Shown here: positions 1,149-21,877 of the stretch, in pieces
How positions within the stretch are numbered: position 1 is the stretch's first letter
Layout: each line of letters opens with the position of its first letter
Source: a virus
Length of the DNA: 29,598 bases
Strand: one strand, 5' to 3'
IMG/VR virus record: IMGVR_UViG_3300044680_000279
Span: 1 to 29,598 of that record
Notes under the pieces: model-generated
The model's database searches: none
What the model was told of the DNA's origin: nothing
The model's input: only the letters and a program-made list of their open reading frames with translations
Translations under genes and position numbers: made by a program

Positions 1149-1898
1149 TCAGACTCCAATGCTCACGGTGGACTTGGGGGCGATGCTCAGCCCGGCGGCT
1201 CCTGCGGGCCCGATGGAACCGAAGGTCGCCGACCAAGCCTTTCCGACTGAAATGGTTGCCCGGCCCGTGGTCGCGGGGTGCGGATCGACGAGGACGAAAT
1301 GAGTGCTGGCATCGAAGCAAAGTGCCCGCTCGGTGTTGGGCCGGTTGTGGTTTCTCTGGCCCTGCTCCGCATCGACGGCGACCAAGAACTCGGTGCGGGC
1401 CCGCACCAGGGCCACAGAACGCAGGACCGCATCCACGGCCCCGGCCGCCTCGTTGGCCGCGGCCGGATGGGACTCCATGCGCGAGCCGCTGTCGATCGAG
1501 AGGGTCAGCTCCGCCAGCGCCCGGGACTCGATCTCGAGGCGCCCGTCGGCATCCATCGAAAGTGTGAGCTCGGTGGGCTGCCGGACGGAATCCATGGCCC
1601 GGGCCGAGCCGTCCTCAGCGGCCGAGCTCTCGCTGGGCAGCCGTGCCTGGGTCGCGACGCGGGATTCTGTATCGAGGGCCGGCGTGGGCTCTGTGGCCGA
1701 ACGAGATTGAATCTCCAGCCGGCCGTCGGCATCCATGCTCAACGTCAGTTCTGAGGGAACCCGCGGCGAACTCAACTGCCGGGAGCAGGAGTCCGAGCAG
1801 CCGGCGGTCTCGGCCCCTGCATCCGTCGCCCCAAGCGCCGAGGCCGGGACGAAGGGGAAGGAGGCTAGGCCGGGAACCGCGGTCAGCGATTGGGCCAT
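1149..1898 (-). CDS. Virion-associated protein built of nine 20-residue repeats
   Basis: A 249-residue protein with no recognised domain. Residues 26-205 divide exactly into nine tandem 20-residue units. Position 5 is Glu in 9 of 9 units, position 11 is Asp in 9 of 9, and position 15 is Arg in 7 of 9. Units 2 and 5 are nearly identical (both contain ELTLSMDADGRLEI). The strand-turn-strand pattern would suit a beta-solenoid or fibrous rod, with the acid and base residues pairing between coils, but the fold is inference. The N-terminal 25 residues are Ala/Pro-rich, and the C-terminal 44 residues include a short Gly-Pro-Ala-Gly stretch. The ATG at 1898 has an AGGGA-type RBS overlapping the upstream stop region. 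Its position among tail-fibre genes suggests a fibre shaft or host-contact protein. Confidence 0.75.
   Translation of the reverse strand: MAQSLTAVPGLASFPFVPASALGATDAGAETAGCSDSCSRQLSSPRVPSELTLSMDADGRLEIQSRSATEPTPALDTESRVATQARLPSESSAAEDGSARAMDSVRQPTELTLSMDADGRLEIESRALAELTLSIDSGSRMESHPAAANEAAGAVDAVLRSVALVRARTEFLVAVDAEQGQRNHNRPNTERALCFDASTHFVLVDPHPATTGRATISVGKAWSATFGSIGPAGAAGLSIAPKSTVSIGV
1284..1823 (-). repeat. Nine tandem 60-bp coding repeats (20 residues each)
   Basis: The nine in-frame 60-nt units encode residues 26-205 of the protein at 1149-1898. The pattern per unit is E at position 5, D at 11 and R at 15. Most units have diverged at DNA level, but units 2 and 5 keep a long shared segment: CCGTCGGCATCCAT on the plus strand occurs near 1543 and again near 1723, exactly 180 nt (three units) apart. 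This indicates growth by tandem duplication with later divergence. Confidence 0.85.
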
Positions 1899-1909: not shown

Positions 1910-3001
1910 CTATGTCGTCGTGCAGGTGATGGTCAGGGTGAGTTGGTCGCCCGCGGCGGCGAGGGTGGCCGACGGCGAAATGGTGTTGTAGTAGAGCATC
2001 GCTGCGGCGGTGCCGGCCACCATGGAATCGAAGACTCCATAGGAGGAGACGGTCACGGGCAGGGCGTCCGAACCATTGGCCGTGAAGACGGGGACCAGGG
2101 TCCAGGTGTTGGTCCCTGCCGTGTGTGCCCACGGGGCGATCTTGCGAATGAGCCCGCCCCCCGACGTGGTGATCTCGGAGGTGAGCGAGGTGTGCGAATC
2201 AGGAGGAGACCCCGCCGCCGCGGTCGATGAGGCGGAGAGGCCCACGAACCAGGCTGGTGCCCCGCCGTCGAGGATTAGGAACTCGAACCCTGCGGCCGGA
2301 GTGGTCGCGGCGACCCCGCCCGGAGCGCCAGCGTTGTACCACTGGTCGACGCTGACAACCGAGGCGCCGGAGGCATTTGTATTTCCGGTGATGTTCCCCC
2401 ACACGCACTGGTTGTTGGTCGTGTCGGCCACCACGATCCGATAGCCGACGAACTGATTGGTGACAAATGTGGATGCCGTCGTCAGGCTGGTAGCACTGGC
2501 AGCGGTCCCCTTCCCGGCCGCTCCGACCCCGAACCCGCCAAGGTTGCGAGCCACGATGTCCCGCCCATTGGAGGTGATCTGCATGGACAGGTCGGTCGCC
2601 GCTCCGGGCACGACCCCAGGGGGGCCGGCCTGCGTCCAGTGCGTGTCCTCGAGCGCGACCAACTGGTCGGCGCCGAGGACCGGCACCCCGTAGTACCGGC
2701 CGAGCCATTCGGCCAGAACATCATCATCGGAGTGGATCCAGGTCGGAAGAGTGCCGGAATGGGAGCGCACGAAGCCGTCGGGATGGATCACCGCCAGGAG
2801 TCCCTCGTTCTCGGCACCCAGGCGAGTGATGCTGCGCCGGTTGAGCAGCGCATCGGCCAGATGATCCTTGACGTCCTTCGGGTCCAGGCTGCCGACATTG
2901 TGGGAATAGTCGTGGAGGTTGAGATAGGCGACCGAGGGCGCATCGCGCTCAGTGAGCTGGCCACCATCGAGGGCGTGGGTGGTGCCAATCTGGACTTTCA
3001 T
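1910..3001 (-). CDS. Putative minor structural / tail fibre protein
   Basis: A 363-residue protein with no catalytic motif that I recognise. Residues 1-120 form a distinct N-terminal region (AYLNLHDYSHN, then TLPTWIHSDDD). Residues 135-250 are rich in Ser, Thr, Ala, Gly and Asn, with repeated beta-strand patterns. The C-terminal 110 residues (ending in GDQLTLTITCTTT) look like the short-strand beta domain common at the ends of actinophage fibre proteins. There is no signal peptide or transmembrane segment. The start is supported by AGGAG six bases upstream; that RBS overlaps the TAG stop of the preceding gene, so the two are tightly coupled. Its position in the post-lysis block of fibre genes suggests a receptor-binding or decoration role, which is inference. 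Confidence 0.7.
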   Translation of the reverse strand: MKVQIGTTHALDGGQLTERDAPSVAYLNLHDYSHNVGSLDPKDVKDHLADALLNRRSITRLGAENEGLLAVIHPDGFVRSHSGTLPTWIHSDDDVLAEWLGRYYGVPVLGADQLVALEDTHWTQAGPPGVVPGAATDLSMQITSNGRDIVARNLGGFGVGAAGKGTAASATSLTTASTFVTNQFVGYRIVVADTTNNQCVWGNITGNTNASGASVVSVDQWYNAGAPGGVAATTPAAGFEFLILDGGAPAWFVGLSASSTAAAGSPPDSHTSLTSEITTSGGGLIRKIAPWAHTAGTNTWTLVPVFTANGSDALPVTVSSYGVFDSMVAGTAAAMLYYNTISPSATLAAAGDQLTLTITCTTT

Positions 3002-8531: not shown

Positions 8532-8792
8532 TCAGATCACCGCATCGGCCACCACGTAGAGATTGTTGACGATATGCATCATTACCCTGTCCCCCACGGC
8601 GCCGGTCCCCGCATACTGCCGTTGCTGGAGGACTGGAGCCGGCGTTTGGGCCCCGTCGATCAGGACCAGGAGCGGCGATACCGAGGTCACGGTGCCGAAG
8701 GCGATGTCTGGCTTGGCGGCCAGGTGCCCCCGGATGTGGGTGTTGAGAACGGTGATGAGCTTGGAGAGCTCGAGCTGGGAGCGGGCCGTCAT
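8532..8792 (-). CDS. Small OB-fold-like baseplate/tail spike protein
   Basis: An 86-residue protein starting at the ATG that overlaps the hub gene stop (ATGA); the longer frame to 8870 is a shadow of the hub gene. Residues 1-30 are helical (QLELSKLITVLNTHIRGHL). Residues 35-86 show the strand pattern of phage OB-fold spike and hub-tip proteins: FGTVTSVSPLLVLIDG, then PVLQQRQY, then GDRVMMHIVNNLYVVADAVI. Small proteins of this type follow the tail hub gene in many siphophages and sit at the tail tip. It is the last gene before the lysis module; the repeated promoter-like element begins 5 nt after its TGA. Confidence 0.65.
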   Translation of the reverse strand: MTARSQLELSKLITVLNTHIRGHLAAKPDIAFGTVTSVSPLLVLIDGAQTPAPVLQQRQYAGTGAVGDRVMMHIVNNLYVVADAVI

Positions 8793-10186
8793 TCGTCGGC
8801 GTCCTCGAGCCAGTCGCTGCCGCCGAAGTGGAAGTTGGGGAAATCGCGGAAGATCCGGCTGCCGTCCCACAAGATGCGCCGGAGCGGTTCGGCAAGGAGC
8901 CGGAAGCCCTCCAGTCCCGCCAGCCGCCCCCCGCTGCTGGTCGAGTAGGTCGACCCGAACGGGCTGTACTTGTAGCCGGTGTTCACGAAGGCATAGCGGG
9001 CGCCTCCTGCCGCCAGGTTGGAGGTCTGAGCGAACTGGGCGTCGGATGGGCCGGAGTTGGCGACCAGATCGGAGATGGGGGATCCCACAGGGATGAAGGT
9101 GAAGTTGTCAAGGACGGAATAGTCCATCGAGATCGTGGCGAGCTGGAGGATGAAGCTCCCCTGCACCGCGGCGGGCCCGCTGTTGAGATAGGCGACGTCG
9201 TAGGCGTTGAGGAAGGGGAGGGGGAGCGTGTCCATCGCGACTGTGCGCGTCAGGCCGAGCACCTGCGGAAGGAGGGCCTGAGCGATCGCAGTGCATTGGG
9301 CATTGTCGGTGACTGTGGCGATCTGGACCGGGGGCGCCGGCACGAATCCATAAGGCCCGGGGGCATAGGTCGGAGAGGTCGGGTCCATGTCGTAGGCGCT
9401 GCCGAAGAGGGCTGTATCGTTCGTCGGATTGGTGCCCGTGACGATGACCCCGTTGTAGCCCGGGTTGTTGGAATAGACGGCCGTGATGTCGTTGGCCACG
9501 TTGCCCGGGCCATCCTGAATGGCGCAGACCACCGCGCTCCCCCCATTGGAGGGGCTCGGGGCCACCACAAGAATGCCGTTCGGATCGAAATAGGCCACCA
9601 TGCCGGCCGCCATCGCGATCGACTGGATGCACGCCCACGGGTCGGTGCCCGGCGCATATATCTGCTGGGCACAGGTGAAGGTCGTCGGCGCGATGTTGTA
9701 GATGACCCCGGGGGCCTGCTGCTCGAGAATGGCGATGATGACCTCGGGCACGGTGGCGCCCACCGCCGAGGTGAATACATCGTTGAAGAGGGCATTGGAA
9801 ATCCTGAGGCTCCGGTCGGTGCCATCAACGGTGAGGATGGGCCCCGGGTCGTCGTTCCCGCCGGCACCCGTCACGACGTCGCACTCGCCGACGCCAAACA
9901 CTCCTTGCGGATACCAGATCGGCTCGCCGTCGACGAGAAAACCCTTCCAAATCTTGACCTCGACCCCGGCCGGCTGGAGGAGGCCGGCGCCTCCGCTGGT
10001 CGGGATGAGGAGGCCGGTCGGATCGACGCACTGGAAGGTGCATGTCGCCATGTTCTCCGAAGTGATGTCAAGGGTGACCGAGCCGCCCGGCAGGATGTTG
10101 TCGATGCTCCCAATGGTGACGTCGTTGACGAGGACATCGACCTTGCAGATGACGGTGCAGGAGTTGGCACCCAGCGTGTCGGTCAT
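8789..10186 (-). CDS. Tail hub / baseplate protein (Tal- or gp27-like)
   Basis: A 465-residue minor tail protein. Residues 13-110 resemble the first hub domain of siphophage tail-tip proteins: VDVLVNDVTIGSI, then TCTFQCVDPTGLLIPT, then PQGVFGVGECDV, where substrate strands pack around the tail axis. Residues 115-390 continue a gp27-like pattern including VPEVIIAILEQ, DPNGILVVAP, ITAVYSNNPGYNGVIVTG and LNAYDVAYLNSG. The C-terminal 70 residues are Gly/Ser- and Arg-rich and lead into an acidic end. It starts with ATGA overlap on the preceding minor tail gene, and it is followed by the OB-fold protein, a standard hub-spike pairing. The assignment rests on pattern and order, without a catalytic signature. 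Confidence 0.7.
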   Translation of the reverse strand: MTDTLGANSCTVICKVDVLVNDVTIGSIDNILPGGSVTLDITSENMATCTFQCVDPTGLLIPTSGGAGLLQPAGVEVKIWKGFLVDGEPIWYPQGVFGVGECDVVTGAGGNDDPGPILTVDGTDRSLRISNALFNDVFTSAVGATVPEVIIAILEQQAPGVIYNIAPTTFTCAQQIYAPGTDPWACIQSIAMAAGMVAYFDPNGILVVAPSPSNGGSAVVCAIQDGPGNVANDITAVYSNNPGYNGVIVTGTNPTNDTALFGSAYDMDPTSPTYAPGPYGFVPAPPVQIATVTDNAQCTAIAQALLPQVLGLTRTVAMDTLPLPFLNAYDVAYLNSGPAAVQGSFILQLATISMDYSVLDNFTFIPVGSPISDLVANSGPSDAQFAQTSNLAAGGARYAFVNTGYKYSPFGSTYSTSSGGRLAGLEGFRLLAEPLRRILWDGSRIFRDFPNFHFGGSDWLEDADE

Positions 10187-13209: not shown

Positions 13210-13442
13210 GGTGCTCCTTTGGATGGAATGAGGGCATGTCGGCGTTCGAGAGCGACCGCTTCGGCGACTTCCCCGCGATGACCGAAGTCGCGCTTCGAGC
13301 GGCGCCACAGCCGGCGCGCTTCGGGGCTGAGTTCCGCCTCCCACCATGCATGCCGGCATCGGGAGCACAGCCAGGGGGCGTGCTCACCCGAGAGCCGCAC
13401 TCTCTCGAGCTCCCCCCCGCACATGAGACAGGTCATCATCAT
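13206..13442 (-). CDS. Small zinc-ribbon protein behind tape measure
   Basis: A 78-residue protein with two CxxC pairs, C5-C8 (TCLMCGG) and C26-C29 (LCSRCRHAWW), a classic zinc ribbon, followed by a basic helical tail (EARRLWRRSKRDFGHRG). The start region is three consecutive ATG codons (13442-13434) that overlap the tape measure stop, so the exact start is uncertain by two residues. Its own stop overlaps the fibre gene start (ATGA). Function is unknown; zinc ribbons of this size may bind nucleic acid or act as structural adaptors. A small zinc protein inserted between tape measure and fibres is unusual. Confidence 0.7.
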   Translation of the reverse strand: MMMTCLMCGGELERVRLSGEHAPWLCSRCRHAWWEAELSPEARRLWRRSKRDFGHRGEVAEAVALERRHALIPSKGAP

Positions 13443-16400
13443 GCTGCCATCGGTCCTGTCGGTGCGCGCTGGAGAGCGCGTCGGAGATCGGGGATCACGC
13501 TTGCGACTCCCTTCTGTGCGGCCTGCTGAACGGCCCATGGATCGCTCGAGCCCCTGGCATCGACGTTCACCTCGATATGGGTTCCGGCCCCACCGCCACT
13601 CGCGGCGACCATGGCACTCGACATGACGAACTCTCCGCCGTGGACGATGGCCAGCGAGGGCGCCCCCTCTGGACCGCCGACCCAGCCGCCGGTATCGAAG
13701 GATGGGATGTTCGGGATGTGGGGGAACAGGTGGATGCCGAGGAACGAAGGATCGTGGGCGTTGGCGAAATTGATGGCGCTGTTCAGGGGACCGATCAATC
13801 CGTCGATGATCTTTTCGCCCACCCCGGCGAGCCAAGACCCGGCACCGGCGAACGCCCCTTGCACCGCCCGCGCCATGCCGGAGAAGGCATTAGGAAGCGA
13901 GGACGTGACCCAGTGGGTGATGCCACTGACCACTCCATCGAAGGCATGAGGGAGCTTCTGCGTGACGAAGGTATCGATGGCCCCCGTGAAGCTGTCGAAG
14001 GCCGAGGCGATGACGTGACGCACGTTGTCGAATCCGTGGGGCAGGGAATTGGTCACCCAGTTCGCGATCCCGCTGCGCACCAGATCGAAGGTGTGCGGCA
14101 GGGAGTTGCTGACCCAGTTCGAAACGCTGCTGGTCACCAAATCGAACCCCGAAGCGATGGCATGGCGGGCGGTATCGAATCCGTGCGGTAGGGAGTTGGT
14201 GAACCAGTCAGCGATCCCATGACGCACCAAATCGAACGTGTGAGGAAGCGAGTTGGTGACCCAGTTCGAGACCCCGCCGGTTATGTCATCGAATCCGTGC
14301 GCGATGGCATGGCGGGCGGTATCGAATCCGTGCGGCAGGGAGTTGGTAGCCCAATTCCCGATGTCCTTGGCGCCCTCGCCCAGCCAGTGCTCGAGGTCGT
14401 GAGTCCAGTTGGCGAGATCCTGCGACCCGCGGTTGAGAAAGCCGCCGAAATCCCTGGCGGCGATATCGGCCGCGTGCCCGACGTCGAAGAATGCCTTGGA
14501 GATGTGCTGGAGCTCTTGGAGCCAGCCCGGAGGAGGCTTCGGCGGTAGCGGGGTGTTCTCCTTGTAGTTGGCCTGCTGGAGCGCCCTGAGTCTCTGATCG
14601 GCCGGCGTGTTTCCGATGATCCCCGTGTCCTGCAAGTCGCCGAGCTTCGAGCGCCCGGTCGGCGAGACGGGGTTCGACGGATTGAGGTAGGGAGCCAAGG
14701 CTGCCTGTTGCGGGATCGGCACGCCCCGATAGGCCGCCGCGGCGATCGCCTCATTCTCCGCCAGGGTGCGTTGGTTGGCGGGAAGGTTGGCCCCATAGGC
14801 GCCGAGGAACTGCTGTGCCGGGGTCAGGGCCGGAAGCTGCGGGGGGTGCAGCAACCCTTGGATCTTCTCGTAGGCCCACCCGATGGCAAGGATGGCGGCG
14901 GGGATGGCGAGGAACGGGGAGGCTTCGAGAGCGAGACCGCCGAGGACCCCGCCGAGGATGGCGAGTGCCGCGGTGAGATCACCAATCGGGATCTTCTGGA
15001 TGAGCCCGGTGAGCCCCTGGAAGGCCGGGGTCAGCACCTTCATGATGGTCAGACCGATGGGAGCGAGCGCCTTGAAAAGATCGACCAAGACGTGCCAGAC
15101 CAGATCACCGGCCGCCCCCAGGAATCCGAAGGCGGTCGTCATCCCCTGCATGAAGCCGGGGCCGAGCTTGACATGGTTCAGGAAGGTGGCCAGGCCGCCA
15201 GACACCCGATCGAACCATTTGCCGACCGCCTGTGCTGGGGCACCTCCGAACAGCTTGAGGAATCCACCGAAGGCATTGCCCATGTTGATGAGGAAGTGAC
15301 CGAATTCATCCATGACCGGACCGACGTCCTTGGTCATGGTGGCCATGAACGACCTGAAGCCGCCGCTCTGGAGCCCCCGGTCGATCGAATCGAAGAATCC
15401 GGACATGGACTTGATCGCGGCCTCGCCGAACGGCGCGACATAGTGGAGCGCGTCGCCGAGCGAATGAAGGAAGGTGATGATCTGTGGGTCGATCTCTTGC
15501 TCGGCCTTGCCGAGATAGGAGGACCCCGAGGAGACGATGGGGGCGATCGCCGCGGCGATGGAGTTGGCCTGAGGGGTGTACGACGCGAGGGTCTGCTGCT
15601 CGGTGATCTTGGCGGTCTCATTGGCTGTGGCCGCCTGTGCCGGCGTCATCAGGCCGGCCGCCACGGCAGCCGCATCGGAGCTCACCGTCGACTGATAGGT
15701 GGAAGCCGCGGTCTTGGCGCCGGAATATGCCTCGTAGCCCTTCACGAGGTCGAGGAGACCGGGGATGAATGCCGCCGCGGTGCCGGCCAGTCCGATCGAG
15801 GTGCCGGCGATGGCGCCGCCCGTGGCGAGCCCCACCGCCCCGAGAACAGGGACGGCGAGCGAGGCAAGGGGAACGCCGAACTGGAGGGCCGGGGAGAGAT
15901 TGCCGAGGGAGTCGACGAAGCTGCCGGCGCCGCTGACCGCGCCAGTCAGTAGCTTGCCGAAGAACCCTCCCCCGCTCCCGCCACCCAGCGCGCTCTCGGC
16001 ATCGCTGATGATCCCCTTGGACAGGGCCGAGGTGAACGAGCCCGAGACCTCCTTGCCCGCCTTGCTGGCCCACTTCTTGAGGTCGGACTCGATCTGGCTC
16101 CTGCCCTTGAACAGAGCAGAGAGCGGGTTCGTCTTGCCCTGCGCCCCGAACTGGCCGAACACCTCGTACTCGCCGTCGGTGAGGGCGGCCTTGGCGTCGG
16201 CCTTCCACATCTCGGCGAACTGTTCGGCGTCGGACTTGACCGCGCCGCCGCTACCACCGAAGGCCCGGAAGATGACCGAACCATCACTGCCGATGCTGGC
16301 GGCGCCCGGCAGGCCATTCGTGAAATCGTTGAGGAAGGAGGAGTCCGCCTCATTGGCGGCCACCTTCTCGGCGAGGTTCTCCGCCCTGGCGATGGCGGCG

Positions 16401-17521
16401 GCATGGAGGTTGTCGGCCGCAAGCTGGTCGATCGCCTTGGCGGCTGGGTTCGGAGGGGGCGGGGCCTGATCCTCTGCAGAGCCGAACCAGCCCTCACCGA
16501 AGGAGGAATTTCGGAGCCCGTTCGATCCATAGAGGCTGTTGATGAGGTTGGTTGCCTGGGCCTCGGCCTGTCGGACGGCCGATTCGTAGCCGAGACGCTC
16601 CTCCTCGGCGAGCTGCTCCTCGAGGTCCGAGCCCACGCCGAGCGCCGGGGTCGGGGGCAGGAAGGAGGATGCGGCGCCGGGGGGCACCTCTTGGGCGAAC
16701 GCATCGACGATGCTGGCCGGCGGGATGGCCGGCGGGGCGGCCGCTGCTTCGAGTGCCCTGGAGACCTGATCTATCTGCGCCGGGGGGAAGCCGGCGAACC
16801 CCATGACATCGTTCAGCTCGGAAAGGTTGAGGCCCTGGCCGAGGATGGAGCTCAGGATGTTGGTGCGCGCCGCTCCGAGCTCACTATCGCCGAAGACTCC
16901 TGCCAGGAATGCCTTGGCGGCTGCCGCCTCGATATAGAGCTCGGCCAGATTGAGATTGAGGGGAATCTCGATCGGCTCGCCGGCCGTGAGCTTGGCGGTC
17001 TCATGGGCCGCTTCGCCCTCGACGGCGAGGGCCGGCTGGTCGAACTCAGCCGGGATCTTGACCGGAGATTCGAGCGCCTCCTTGACGCCCTCGATTTCGG
17101 CGGCGTCTCGGTCGACGGTGGAGGTCTCGAGCTCTGCCGGGATTTCGACCGGCGACTCGAGGGCGCTCTTGGACTCCTCGAGCTCGGCGGCCTTCTCATC
17201 GAAGGATTCGGATGATGCGCCGATAGGGATGTCGACAGGCTTCTCGAGCTCGTCTTTCTTCCCCTTGACCTCATCGACTTCTTCGTCGAGCTTGTCCTTG
17301 TCGACCGAGACCTCGAACTCGACAGGCTTCTCGAGCTCGTCTTTCTTCTCGTCGACCTCATCGACGTCCTCGTCGAACTCTTCGAGGTCGAGCTTGACCT
17401 TGGGAGACCAGACGGTATCGTCGAGCTCCTGGCCGCGCTTCTTTACATCGTCGAGATCCTCGTCGAACTCTTCGCGGTCGAGCTTGAGGTGGGCGGTGAT
17501 TGCCCCGGCGTCGAAACCCAT
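13439..17521 (-). CDS. Tape measure protein
   Basis: The longest gene (1360 residues). Tape measure proteins set tail length and are later ejected; at about 1.5 Angstrom per residue this one suggests a tail near 200 nm. Residues 10-165 are acidic repeats of about 30 residues (FDEDVDEVDEKKDELEKPV and variants), probably coiled coils with short strands. Two long hydrophobic stretches (about residues 535-580 and 845-885) fit the membrane segments typical of tape measures. Residues 1056-1202 hold three 49-residue Trp/Phe-containing repeats. The C-terminus (HIEVNVDARGSSDPWAV) resembles the usual tape measure end. I see no peptidase or lysozyme motif. The ATG overlaps the chaperone stop (TGATG). 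Gene order after the frameshifted chaperone pair makes the call secure. Confidence 0.95.
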   Translation of the reverse strand: MGFDAGAITAHLKLDREEFDEDLDDVKKRGQELDDTVWSPKVKLDLEEFDEDVDEVDEKKDELEKPVEFEVSVDKDKLDEEVDEVKGKKDELEKPVDIPIGASSESFDEKAAELEESKSALESPVEIPAELETSTVDRDAAEIEGVKEALESPVKIPAEFDQPALAVEGEAAHETAKLTAGEPIEIPLNLNLAELYIEAAAAKAFLAGVFGDSELGAARTNILSSILGQGLNLSELNDVMGFAGFPPAQIDQVSRALEAAAAPPAIPPASIVDAFAQEVPPGAASSFLPPTPALGVGSDLEEQLAEEERLGYESAVRQAEAQATNLINSLYGSNGLRNSSFGEGWFGSAEDQAPPPPNPAAKAIDQLAADNLHAAAIARAENLAEKVAANEADSSFLNDFTNGLPGAASIGSDGSVIFRAFGGSGGAVKSDAEQFAEMWKADAKAALTDGEYEVFGQFGAQGKTNPLSALFKGRSQIESDLKKWASKAGKEVSGSFTSALSKGIISDAESALGGGSGGGFFGKLLTGAVSGAGSFVDSLGNLSPALQFGVPLASLAVPVLGAVGLATGGAIAGTSIGLAGTAAAFIPGLLDLVKGYEAYSGAKTAASTYQSTVSSDAAAVAAGLMTPAQAATANETAKITEQQTLASYTPQANSIAAAIAPIVSSGSSYLGKAEQEIDPQIITFLHSLGDALHYVAPFGEAAIKSMSGFFDSIDRGLQSGGFRSFMATMTKDVGPVMDEFGHFLINMGNAFGGFLKLFGGAPAQAVGKWFDRVSGGLATFLNHVKLGPGFMQGMTTAFGFLGAAGDLVWHVLVDLFKALAPIGLTIMKVLTPAFQGLTGLIQKIPIGDLTAALAILGGVLGGLALEASPFLAIPAAILAIGWAYEKIQGLLHPPQLPALTPAQQFLGAYGANLPANQRTLAENEAIAAAAYRGVPIPQQAALAPYLNPSNPVSPTGRSKLGDLQDTGIIGNTPADQRLRALQQANYKENTPLPPKPPPGWLQELQHISKAFFDVGHAADIAARDFGGFLNRGSQDLANWTHDLEHWLGEGAKDIGNWATNSLPHGFDTARHAIAHGFDDITGGVSNWVTNSLPHTFDLVRHGIADWFTNSLPHGFDTARHAIASGFDLVTSSVSNWVSNSLPHTFDLVRSGIANWVTNSLPHGFDNVRHVIASAFDSFTGAIDTFVTQKLPHAFDGVVSGITHWVTSSLPNAFSGMARAVQGAFAGAGSWLAGVGEKIIDGLIGPLNSAINFANAHDPSFLGIHLFPHIPNIPSFDTGGWVGGPEGAPSLAIVHGGEFVMSSAMVAASGGGAGTHIEVNVDARGSSDPWAVQQAAQKGVASVIPDLRRALQRAPTGPMAA
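13916..14356 (-). repeat. Three 147-bp (49-residue) tandem repeats in tape measure
   Basis: The segment encodes residues 1056-1202 of the tape measure as three units of exactly 147 nt. Each unit splits into a 30-residue and a 19-residue half, both starting with a variant of NWVTNSLPHGFD. The period shows at DNA level: GGTATCGAATCCGTGCGG on the plus strand occurs at 14171 and again at 14318, 147 nt apart. The first two units are closest; the third has drifted (TFVTQKLPHAFD). Confidence 0.85.
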
Positions 17522-20023: not shown

Positions 20024-20599
20024 TCAGGCGGTCTGAGCGTGCTTGCGCTCATAGAAGGCTTTGCGGGATGCGAGTGCTTTCGCTATCCGTTCGGGTGAAT
20101 GTTTCCGACCGCGCTGACCCGCCGCGATGCGCTCACGGGCCTCGGGGGAGAACCCGACCTCCCGATGCCATGCCCTGTGCTTGGCCGCGGTCTCAGGGCC
20201 GCGCTTTTGACCGGTCACGGCGAGGCGCAGTTTCTCCTTGGTCTCCTCCGATGTCACGCGCCCGCGGCCCGCTGCCGCGATCTTGGCTCGAGTCTCGGAG
20301 GAGCGCTTGAGTCCCGCGTTGGAGTCGACGATCTCTCGGCTGTTGAAAACGGAGTCCAGAAGGTCAGCCCAGTGCTGCTCGCGCACCGTCAGGAAGTCCG
20401 CGCTGCACGGCTCCAGCATCTCGAAATCGAATGCCTCTTCCCCGTGCTTGTCCCATGACCGCTGGAGATAGCGGGAATGGTGCTTGCCGTGGGCCAGGTC
20501 GAACCGGTGCTGTCGCCAGCGAGCGCCGATGTCCCGCGCCTGCCCCACATAGCAACGACCGGAATCTCGGTGGACGATCCTGTAGATGCCGGTCTTCAT
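20024..20599 (-). CDS. GIY-YIG endonuclease with NUMOD3 motifs (copy 2)
   Basis: A 191-residue free-standing GIY-YIG nuclease. Catalytic domain residues 1-90: Y6 (GIYRIVH), Y17-V-G19 (CYVGQ), R27, E74 (TVREQHW) and N86 (VFNS). The C-terminal half holds several NUMOD3-type DNA-binding motifs (LKRSSETRAKIAAAGRGR, then QKRGPETAAKHRAW, then GRKHSPERIAKA). It is paralogous to the nuclease at 20883-21341, aligning without gaps over the first 86 residues with 43 identities. Its ATG overlaps the stop of the head closure gene (ATGA). Such genes usually act as homing endonucleases cutting related phage genomes lacking the insert. It has no intron partner here. Confidence 0.85.
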   Translation of the reverse strand: MKTGIYRIVHRDSGRCYVGQARDIGARWRQHRFDLAHGKHHSRYLQRSWDKHGEEAFDFEMLEPCSADFLTVREQHWADLLDSVFNSREIVDSNAGLKRSSETRAKIAAAGRGRVTSEETKEKLRLAVTGQKRGPETAAKHRAWHREVGFSPEARERIAAGQRGRKHSPERIAKALASRKAFYERKHAQTA

Positions 20600-20886
20600 C
20601 GGGTGAGCGCCGTGACGCCAATGAGGGAGCCGTCGATGTCGATGAGGCTGGTGATCGCGACCACTTCCCGGCTGTCGAGGAGGTCGCCAATGGCCGGACT
20701 CTCGGTGAGAAGGACCGAGGTGGTGGCCGTGATCGTCTCCCCGTCGGCGCCGAAGATGTCGCGGAGCTTCTGCACCTTCCGACAGGGGACCGTCTGCGGC
20801 TGCCCATAGATCGGGTCCGATCGGTTGTCGGTTCCCGTCTTCGGCAGCCATTCCACCGTCTGCTTGAGGAAGGGGGAGATGTTCAC
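20596..20886 (-). CDS. Head closure / head-tail joining protein
   Basis: A 96-residue protein: MNISPFLKQTVEWLPKTGTDN, then PIYGQPQTVPCRKV, then strand-rich VLLTESPAIGDLLDSREVVAITSLID ending GVTALTR. The short N-terminal segment followed by a small beta-barrel is the layout of siphophage head closure (stopper) proteins that seal the portal ring and dock the tail. It lies between two GIY-YIG genes, overlapping both by 4 nt. Without those two inserts it would follow the connector gene directly, the normal head-to-tail order. No catalytic motifs are seen. Confidence 0.7.
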   Translation of the reverse strand: MNISPFLKQTVEWLPKTGTDNRSDPIYGQPQTVPCRKVQKLRDIFGADGETITATTSVLLTESPAIGDLLDSREVVAITSLIDIDGSLIGVTALTR

Positions 20887-21341
20887 GCCGCTCGATTCCT
20901 GCGGATCTCGGTGAGCTCGGAGCGGCGTTCCGGCGAATAGCTATCCCACCGTCGCTTTGCCGCTTCGCTCATCCTGCGACGGGTCTCGGCCGTGTGCTTC
21001 CCACCGCGGTGTGCATCAGCCATCTTCTGTCGGGTCTCGGGCGTGTGCTTGAATCCGCGGGGACTGCCGGCGGCCGGGGCTGAGTTGAACTCGGGGCGGA
21101 GGGCATCCATCCAGAACTGCTCGCGGGAGGTCAGGGCCTCCGGATCGCACTCCTCCAGCACTTCCCAGTAGAAGGCTGCTTCGCCGTACTGATCCCATGC
21201 GGCCTGGAGGTGCTTGCCATGGTGATAGCCACCACGGAGGCGCGTACGATGGTTGGCCTCGCGGCGCTCGAAGTCGACAGTCTGACCGATATACCGCCGT
21301 CCGGTGTCGGCATGGACGATGGCATAGATGCAGGTCAGCAT
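20883..21341 (-). CDS. GIY-YIG endonuclease with NUMOD3 motifs (copy 1)
   Basis: A 152-residue nuclease starting at ATG 21341, which overlaps the connector stop by one base (TGATG); the longer frame to 21665 is a shadow of the connector gene. GIY-YIG residues are Y6 (CIYAIVH), Y17-I-G19 (RYIGQT), R27, E74 (TSREQFWMD) and N86 (EFNSAP). Residues 96-133 are two NUMOD3-like motifs (GFKHTPETRQKMADAH and GKHTAETRRRMSEAAKRRW). It is shorter than copy 2 but aligned with it over the whole catalytic domain. Both copies read in the same direction as the late genes and use overlapping starts, so they are co-translated with virion genes. Function by family: site-specific DNA cleavage and homing. Confidence 0.85.
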   Translation of the reverse strand: MLTCIYAIVHADTGRRYIGQTVDFERREANHRTRLRGGYHHGKHLQAAWDQYGEAAFYWEVLEECDPEALTSREQFWMDALRPEFNSAPAAGSPRGFKHTPETRQKMADAHRGGKHTAETRRRMSEAAKRRWDSYSPERRSELTEIRRNRAA

Positions 21342-21877
21342 CACGTAAAATTTATGAATGGCTGGCTGTGCCCCTGGCGGATCAGGAATGGCGAGAGGAG
21401 CGATGCCTGGATCCGATCGAGCTGGGAGATGCCGTCTCGGATGTCGTAGCGGACCGAGATGCCCGTCACACTCTCCGAGACAACGCTCCGGTCGAAGGGG
21501 AGGGTGACCATCCGGTACGCCTCGAGGCAGACCCAATCGACGACCTGCTCGGGGACGACCCCCTCGTAGTCGAGGTAGAAGGCACCCGCGAGCTGGTTGC
21601 TGACCATGATCGGGGACGGGGCCCCGAGCATGTTCGGCCACCCATACTTGAAGGTGCGCGGCCATTCCCGCTCTTGAGTGACCGTGTACTTGACGCCGAT
21701 GAACGGCGCCTCCTCATCGACCGCCATTGTGGCGGCCAGGAGAATGCCGTCAGCCAGGTCCACCGTGAGCCCGTACCGGGTGCTCAGCCGGTCTTCCGCG
21801 TCCTTGCTGGTGACATAGGACTGCGGAGTGTCCCCCGCCGCCGGAACATTGGGGATCTCCGGCTGGACGTCGCTCAC
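21341..21877 (-). CDS. Head-tail connector protein
   Basis: A 178-residue protein with a helical N-terminal half (YVTSKDAEDRLSTRYGLTVDLADGILLAATMAV), a strand region (FIGVKYTVTQEREWPR), PEQVVDWVCLEAYRMV and a C-terminal helix (LDRIQASLLSPFL). This layout matches the gp6/gp15-type adaptors that bind beneath the portal and receive the head closure ring. It overlaps the small head protein upstream (ATGA) and the GIY-YIG start downstream (TGATG). Order after the major capsid protein supports the role. Confidence 0.7.
   Translation of the reverse strand: MSDVQPEIPNVPAAGDTPQSYVTSKDAEDRLSTRYGLTVDLADGILLAATMAVDEEAPFIGVKYTVTQEREWPRTFKYGWPNMLGAPSPIMVSNQLAGAFYLDYEGVVPEQVVDWVCLEAYRMVTLPFDRSVVSESVTGISVRYDIRDGISQLDRIQASLLSPFLIRQGHSQPFINFT

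Follow-up and report, generated by a model that had tools for sequence, protein, structure and literature searches.

Introduction

Host-recognition fibres decide which bacteria are infected by a phage, and many of them are unrecognisable by sequence. Among the described systems closest to the protein studied here are the right-handed beta-helix tailspikes (P22, Det7, Sf6, and CBA120 TSP2), which share beta-rich repeats with the models of the family reported below, but which, to our knowledge, are built of irregular coils with no fixed 20-residue frame. The triple beta-spiral shafts of adenovirus, reovirus, and phage are trimeric virus fibres composed of tandem short beta-repeats; in contrast to these shafts, the present family has a charged frame. 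Repeats of about 20 residues (19 in 3p4g) with a conserved Asp are also a feature of RTX beta-rolls and of 3p4g, a beta-helical antifreeze protein that depends on Ca2+, whereas the protein examined here carries arginines at two conserved positions. Curlin repeats follow the Ser/Gln/Asn motif S-x5-Q-x-G-x-G-N-x-A-x3-Q. Repeats of about 20 residues are likewise common to curli (CsgA) and the family; curli genes are treated in PMC7029224.

This study concerns P0001, a 249-aa repeat protein encoded on the minus strand (1149..1898, ATG start at 1898) of the 29,598-base virus record IMGVR_UViG_3300044680_000279, which is the whole stretch of DNA analysed and is referred to as the window. We examined its repeats, its relatives in other viruses, and its neighbouring genes, and weighed the roles that such a protein may play.

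Results

Genomic context of P0001

An integrase gene occupies positions 1-828 on the plus strand of the window, and a minus-strand late operon encodes terminase, portal, scaffold, major head protein, tape measure, and tail protein. The P0001 gene sits at the far end of this operon, beyond the tape measure and tail genes. Its product begins with a 25-residue segment (1824..1898, minus strand) that has no signal peptide by a simple rule, and ends, after the repeats, with a 44-residue segment (1152..1283, minus strand). The partner gene P0002 (363 aa, 1910..3001, minus strand), whose homologues adjoin repeat genes in other viruses, lies directly upstream at a distance of 11 nt, and the 106-aa gene P0005 (825..1145, minus strand) lies directly downstream. 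P0005 seemed homologous to the genes of about 105 aa located downstream of other repeat genes, but this was not confirmed, as it did not appear among the window matches of an HMM made from 13 of those genes. The viral scans found no relatives of P0005 or of the tail protein encoded at 8789-10186.

P0001 had no match in PHROGs (0 families at 0.01), Pfam, NCBIfam, PDB, or a tblastn search of isolate phages, and tblastn with P0002 against isolate phages and plasmids returned nothing. L001, the one relative that the first viral scan gave for P0001, was discarded, as the match was the octapeptide MDADGRLE within an unrelated 687-aa ORF.

Repeat array of P0001

Residues 26-205 of P0001 (1284..1823, minus strand) divide without gaps into nine units of 20 residues, from unit 1 (1764-1823) to unit 9 (1284-1343), with the frame R1-E5-D11-R15. 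This confirms the nine units with E5, D11, and R15 read in the earlier note on this DNA, which had left R1 unmentioned. Glutamate at position 5 and aspartate at position 11 are present in all nine units, and arginine in seven of nine at position 15 and also at position 1. Identity at increasing lag peaks at 20, 40, 60, and 80 residues, and the best lag statistic of 6.87 was reached by none of 5000 shuffles (maximum 4.48). Two columns are invariant over the nine units, while not one of 1000 shuffles had even a single invariant column at any period tested.

Units 2 (1704..1763) and 5 (1524..1583), both on the minus strand, share 17 of 20 residues, which agrees with the near-identity in protein noted earlier; the DNA identity that had been described as retained is weak, at 40 of 60 bases, with the same codon used for only 7 of the 17 identical residues. 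This low codon sharing indicates that the likeness of the two units is old and was held at the protein level. No family of direct DNA repeats was found in 1000-2300, and no tandem array in 1284-1823. The repeat pattern of P0001 is old and maintained as protein, and recent DNA duplication is not its source.

Charged residues amount to 48% at odd positions versus 4% at even positions of the array, and hydrophobic residues to 32% at even versus 10% at odd positions. The frame positions 1, 5, 11, and 15 are all odd, so that in a unit folded as a strand the conserved charges would share one face. With 30 acidic versus 17 basic residues in the repeats, the charges cannot all pair.

Relatives found by repeat spacing

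Viral contigs were searched for four E-x5-D pairs with a 60-nt period (ED pattern), which gave at least 120 stretches. When the frames of the 120 matches listed were read, 107 encoded proteins full of a 20-residue repeat, and these 107 loci with 111 ORFs formed the ED-pattern set, the remaining 13 (L012, L020, L032, L058, L061, L078, L079, L084, L096, L107, L113, L120, and L121) being set aside. The ETATG-type repeat is exemplified by xxVSETATGTDAVSSxxTFx. The R pattern, in which R15 and R1 were added to the ED pattern, was found in 26 stretches of viral contigs and in 13 of genomes; judged by their reading frames, 24 and 2 of these, respectively, were members; those set aside (viral L129 and L147, and 11 of the 13 from genomes) were near-identical tandem repeats or charged low-complexity sequences. 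After the near-duplicates L134, L136, L141, L142, L144, and L153 had been left out of the R-type statistics, 20 ORFs remained; a unit of L145, RTTSESPTTSDVATRTGTFN, is an example. Their 241 units, far more than those selected by the pattern, have R1 at a frequency of 0.85 and R15 at 0.73.

Altogether, the two spacing patterns recovered more than 100 proteins with a 20-residue period from viral contigs. In bacterial genomes, matches to the A1 profile at E <= 1e-8 were rare: 2 were found among 297 genomes, the centre genome accounting for one of them, 0 among 394, and 1 among 199; since this profile was made from E5 sequences, arrays with D5 may escape it.

For the repeat itself, the proteins tested had no convincing Pfam or NCBIfam match, and some family members match PHROGs, through families of unknown function only. 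One of these, phrog_12240, matches the ETATG-type proteins L008, L112, and L041 and the D-type proteins L207 and L211, whereas P0001 has no match to its profile (0.01); another, phrog_23524, matches L189, a protein of 52 units, at 2.8e-44. Neither family carries a function or a description of repeats. The searches of the literature, limited to open-licence papers, met no description of an R1-[E/D]5-D11-R15 repeat. In tblastn searches of isolate phages with the repeat proteins, in which the BLAST low-complexity filter may mask such repeats, nothing was significant except Methanosarcina virus MetMV (E 1e-4), where L169:7725-9125 encodes a hypothetical archaeal-virus protein with imperfect 20-residue E-x5-D units.

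Sequence similarity of P0001 to the family

An HMM of 16 R-type nine-unit windows, from which P0001 was excluded, scored P0001 at 59.5 bits, compared with 9.0 for the best of 2937 scored shuffles and 7.0 for the next-best ORF of the window. However, shuffles that keep R1, E5, D11, and R15 equal the score of P0001 in 936 of 1000 cases, and without the four frame columns 1220 of 5000 shuffles fit the R-type as well as P0001 does. Because frame-keeping shuffles score alike and the rest is near chance, the sequence link between P0001 and the family is the frame itself. In profile-profile comparisons, P0001 matched the R-type at 79.9% and the R-type matched the ETATG-type at 92.8%, but P0001 matched the ETATG-type at only 4.8%, which compares with 0.1-13.2% for five column-permuted controls. 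P0001 does not fit the ETATG-type, which is marked by a hydrophobic position 3, an aromatic position 19, and a C-terminal Trp array; across its units, position 3 holds P, A, L, G, R, or N, and it has no LWEIIDD-like end. It has the exact 20-residue period over several units, the conserved R1, E/D5, D11, and R15 and, as in the R and D branches, a P0002-like neighbour gene. Since the spacing patterns were built from the frame, they are partly circular as evidence of membership.

Conserved gene order

In L138 (95.7 bits), L123, L133, L143, L145, and L130 (21.5), a P0002 homologue is found immediately upstream of the repeat gene; in L126 and L149 it is immediately downstream. When eight window proteins were compared by tblastn with the loci gathered up to then, all four matches at E <= 1e-3 were to P0002, and each adjoined a repeat gene. 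A search of viral contigs with the P0002 domain only gave 51 loci, three of them on contigs already seen (L198, L199, and L219, the contigs of L135, L123, and L138), which were left out of the P0002-linked HMM. The repeat HMM detected a repeat ORF in 40 of the 51 loci. In 39 this ORF shares the strand of the P0002 homologue and lies downstream of it, with 18 within 150 nt, and in L174 it is on the opposite strand. In three of the 11 loci without a repeat match (L175, L197, and L214), the sequence continues for no more than 112 nt downstream of the P0002 match.

In the P0002-linked repeats, D mostly replaces E at position 5, a form that the E-based patterns were unable to find, and several proteins mix both. 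Over 34 loci and 540 units, the frame reads R1 (0.84), D5 (0.93) or E5 (0.07), D11, and R15 (0.60), where positions 5 and 11 are fixed by the way in which the units were cut and R1 and R15 are free. Glutamate at position 5, invariant in P0001, is hence not obligatory in the family as sampled, and D5 is the commoner residue in the P0002-linked set. The HMM of these 34 loci scored P0001 at 42.3 bits; none of 2955 scored shuffles exceeded 10.8, and the next ORF of the window reached 6.2. With positions 5 and 11 disregarded, none of 5000 shuffles reached P0001; with the whole frame disregarded, 173 did.

By these comparisons, the similarity of P0001 to the family appears to lie almost wholly in the four frame positions and the conserved gene order. 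On the strength of both, we take it as established that P0001 belongs to a large, unnamed viral repeat family, R1-[E/D]5-D11-R15, which is not rare, occurs in many uncultivated viruses, and makes a larger find than was first noted.

Features of the repeat family

The earlier suggestion that repeat number might vary between phages proved right, as arrays in the family range from 4 to 52 units; by a stricter count of E-x5-D, 17 complete R-type ORFs have 4-38 units and 88 complete ETATG-type ORFs 4-37. Homologues keep the period, contrary to the refuting case named in the earlier note, successive units being spaced by exactly 20 residues in 1130 cases, by 40 in 104, and rarely otherwise. Only 8 of 164 arrays contain any pair of units identical at 54 or more of 60 bases, so the exact length of 20 seems to be kept by structure and not by recent slippage; the best pair of P0001, at 40 of 60, is close to the family median (39-42 of 60).

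Among 280 R-type units, which are not independent within one protein, R15 and the R1 of the next unit occur together in 196, singly in 11 and 37, and not at all in 36. The same units, phased on E5 and D11, have both of these residues in 254, one in 5 and 16, and neither in 5. In the groups other than P0001, odd positions are more hydrophobic than even ones; as P0001 has its hydrophobic residues at even positions, packing may differ between them.

The repeats are combined with various other segments. A lectin-like Laminin_G_3 domain precedes them in two R-type proteins (L138 and L139), and in the protein encoded at L218:5733-10223 a GH16 glycosidase domain comes before 27 units of the D-type. 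When L149 is compared with L153, both located in Acidobacteria genomes, conservation is visibly higher in the repeats than in the preceding domain. ETATG-type proteins often finish in a Trp array (e.g., LWEIIDDTQTANWQNINN), and ORFs of this type (L003-L122) were repeatedly seen with the N-terminus MFGxxxFAQxPFASL or MAEGGWGSGTWGQAGWG, followed by the 20-residue repeats and a C-terminal Trp array such as LWEIIDDTQTANWQNI. A collagen-like run of at least six consecutive GXY triplets is absent from P0001, and a GXY run was found in 4 of 110 ETATG-type ORFs. The curlin motif was found in none of 168 repeat-family proteins, P0001 included.

Structure prediction

AF2 models were made from alignment A1, comprising P0001 and 63 of 78 windows, and alignment A3, comprising 42 full-length or partial ORFs. 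The monomer prediction proposed in the earlier note gave an all-beta model of P0001 (63 aligned relatives) of low confidence, with a mean pLDDT of 56 and 54-74 in ten-residue blocks over residues 21-180. The model of L051 (41 relatives; pLDDT 64) has two strands per unit, at about positions 2-7 and 11-19, and the two models place their strands differently. Foldseek found no match to either at E <= 0.001. The best structural alignment of the L051 model was with 3p4g (Z 19.5, rmsd 3.8, 205 aligned residues; the next had 16.5). Alignment to the tailspikes with VIA-align gave Z of 9.2-10.3 for the P0001 model and 14.2-14.9 for the L051 model, and three BFVD matches of the L051 model were named 'Curlin associated' (E 0.04-0.4).

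These results need to be discounted, since AF2 makes false beta-solenoids from 20-residue repeats: Pratt et al. report that, of 50 models predicted by AF2 for tandem copies of random 20-residue sequences, 36 were beta-solenoids, with negative charges stacked internally (PMC11795689). The alternating pattern of residues makes beta structure likely for the P0001 repeats, while the solenoid fold of the models is unproven. The earlier interpretation of the array as a structural repeat was right in kind and is partly supported, while its solenoid or fibre fold and its salt-bridge ladders stay proposals.

Discussion

We put at roughly 55% the probability that a temperate tailed phage uses P0001 as a structural protein, namely as a charge-framed beta-repeat shaft or spacer on the virion surface with a length that varies by units. 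A shaft or spacer of a surface fibre is the most likely role given the late-operon position past the tail genes, the lectin-like and glycosidase domains of relatives, the variable array length, and the tail-spike-like neighbour in L054; gene position would make it a tail fibre. The nine units would build a short rod, each unit giving about two short strands, so that R1, E5, D11, and R15 share one face and recur every 20 residues. Charges of opposite sign on adjacent strands, units, or chains would cancel and so fix the register, a pairing suggested by the composition and co-occurrence of the frame residues. Changes of array length by whole units would set the reach of the adjoining domains.

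The same shaft could instead stand on the capsid as a head fibre or head decoration. Genes neighbouring repeat genes elsewhere include head, packaging, and lysis genes: terminase and portal flank the repeat gene of L126, a portal gene comes after that of L143, L183 has a head maturation protease upstream, and L201 has an endolysin nearby. Such neighbours make this a live rival, but one that we hold to be improbable for P0001: its gene is found beyond those for the tape measure and tail, at the distal end of the operon, and the gene next to the repeat gene of L054 matches tail spike and virion structural families. It is similarly doubtful that the repeats form a metal-bound beta-roll like RTX beta-rolls and 3p4g, in which the acidic residues at positions 5 and 11, joined in the ETATG-type by its TG.D loop, would bind Ca2+ and arginines would replace the ion in the R-type, with P0001. 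This idea draws on the alignment of the L051 model to the Ca2+-dependent 3p4g and on the 35 of 110 ETATG-type ORFs with at least three TG.D.[VILA] loops. However, that loop set is absent from P0001, the R-type, and the D-type, the RTX motifs GGxGxDxU or GTGND occur twice or more in none of the 168 repeat-family proteins (0 in P0001), and the models combine low confidence with the known AF2 bias.

A quite different role, that of an adhesin made by the phage but exported to the host surface for lysogenic conversion or exclusion, with no part in the virion, has in its favour the lectin-like domains of relatives, the hydrophobic segment with which the P0002 homologue of L126 begins, and signal-peptide-like starts, which are unusual on virion parts, in 4 of 19 R-type ORFs (L126, L130, L139, and L149; the simple rule flagged L146 too). 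Those four members make export conceivable for the R-type branch. The same rule found no such start in P0001, P0002, 98 of 99 ETATG-type ORFs, or 36 of 37 D-set ORFs, and P0001 belongs to a late structural operon, so for P0001 itself we consider export very unlikely. Nor do we give much weight to the view that P0001 is a chance low-complexity repeat of the same spacing and its family link spurious. Likeness outside the frame is indeed near chance in both shuffle tests, and low-complexity sequences can fit the spacing, as did the 2 viral and 11 genome stretches set aside; yet the adjacency of P0002 homologues was found without using the repeat, and the best unit pair of P0001 is as diverged in DNA as those of the family, unlike the near-identical tandem or charged low-complexity stretches set aside.

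If P0001 is a virion-surface shaft, its family is a variant of phage fibre and adhesin repeats unless its fold proves new. We tentatively raise the further possibility of a widespread, undescribed class of viral surface fibres with a charge-coded beta-repeat, in which a single R1-[E/D]5-D11-R15 register would recur each 20 residues and Ca2+-bound and arginine-neutralised versions would share one fold, modular with lectin and glycosidase domains and a P0002-like partner, in very different hosts (uncultivated phages, Acidobacteria genome elements, and possibly a Methanosarcina virus). With the four-residue frame and the partner gene, the family can be recognised in metagenomic viruses whose proteins, as far as tested, had no convincing Pfam or NCBIfam match for the repeat. 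The persistence of the frame where little other likeness is left makes it a clean case for testing how charge pairing may set the register in repeat shafts.

Other features of the window

Three further observations concern the remainder of the window. The tape measure gene (13439-17521) contains DNA tandem repeats at 14028-14347 and 17232-17391, with periods of 57/147 nt and 87 nt. Two homing-endonuclease genes, both matching phrog_314, lie side by side at 20024-20851 and 20883-21665, the pair (20024-21665) being placed between the connector and major head protein genes. The gene at 5568-6185 matches weakly the C92 permuted papain-like amidase family, at 25.2 bits, under the curated cut-off of 27.
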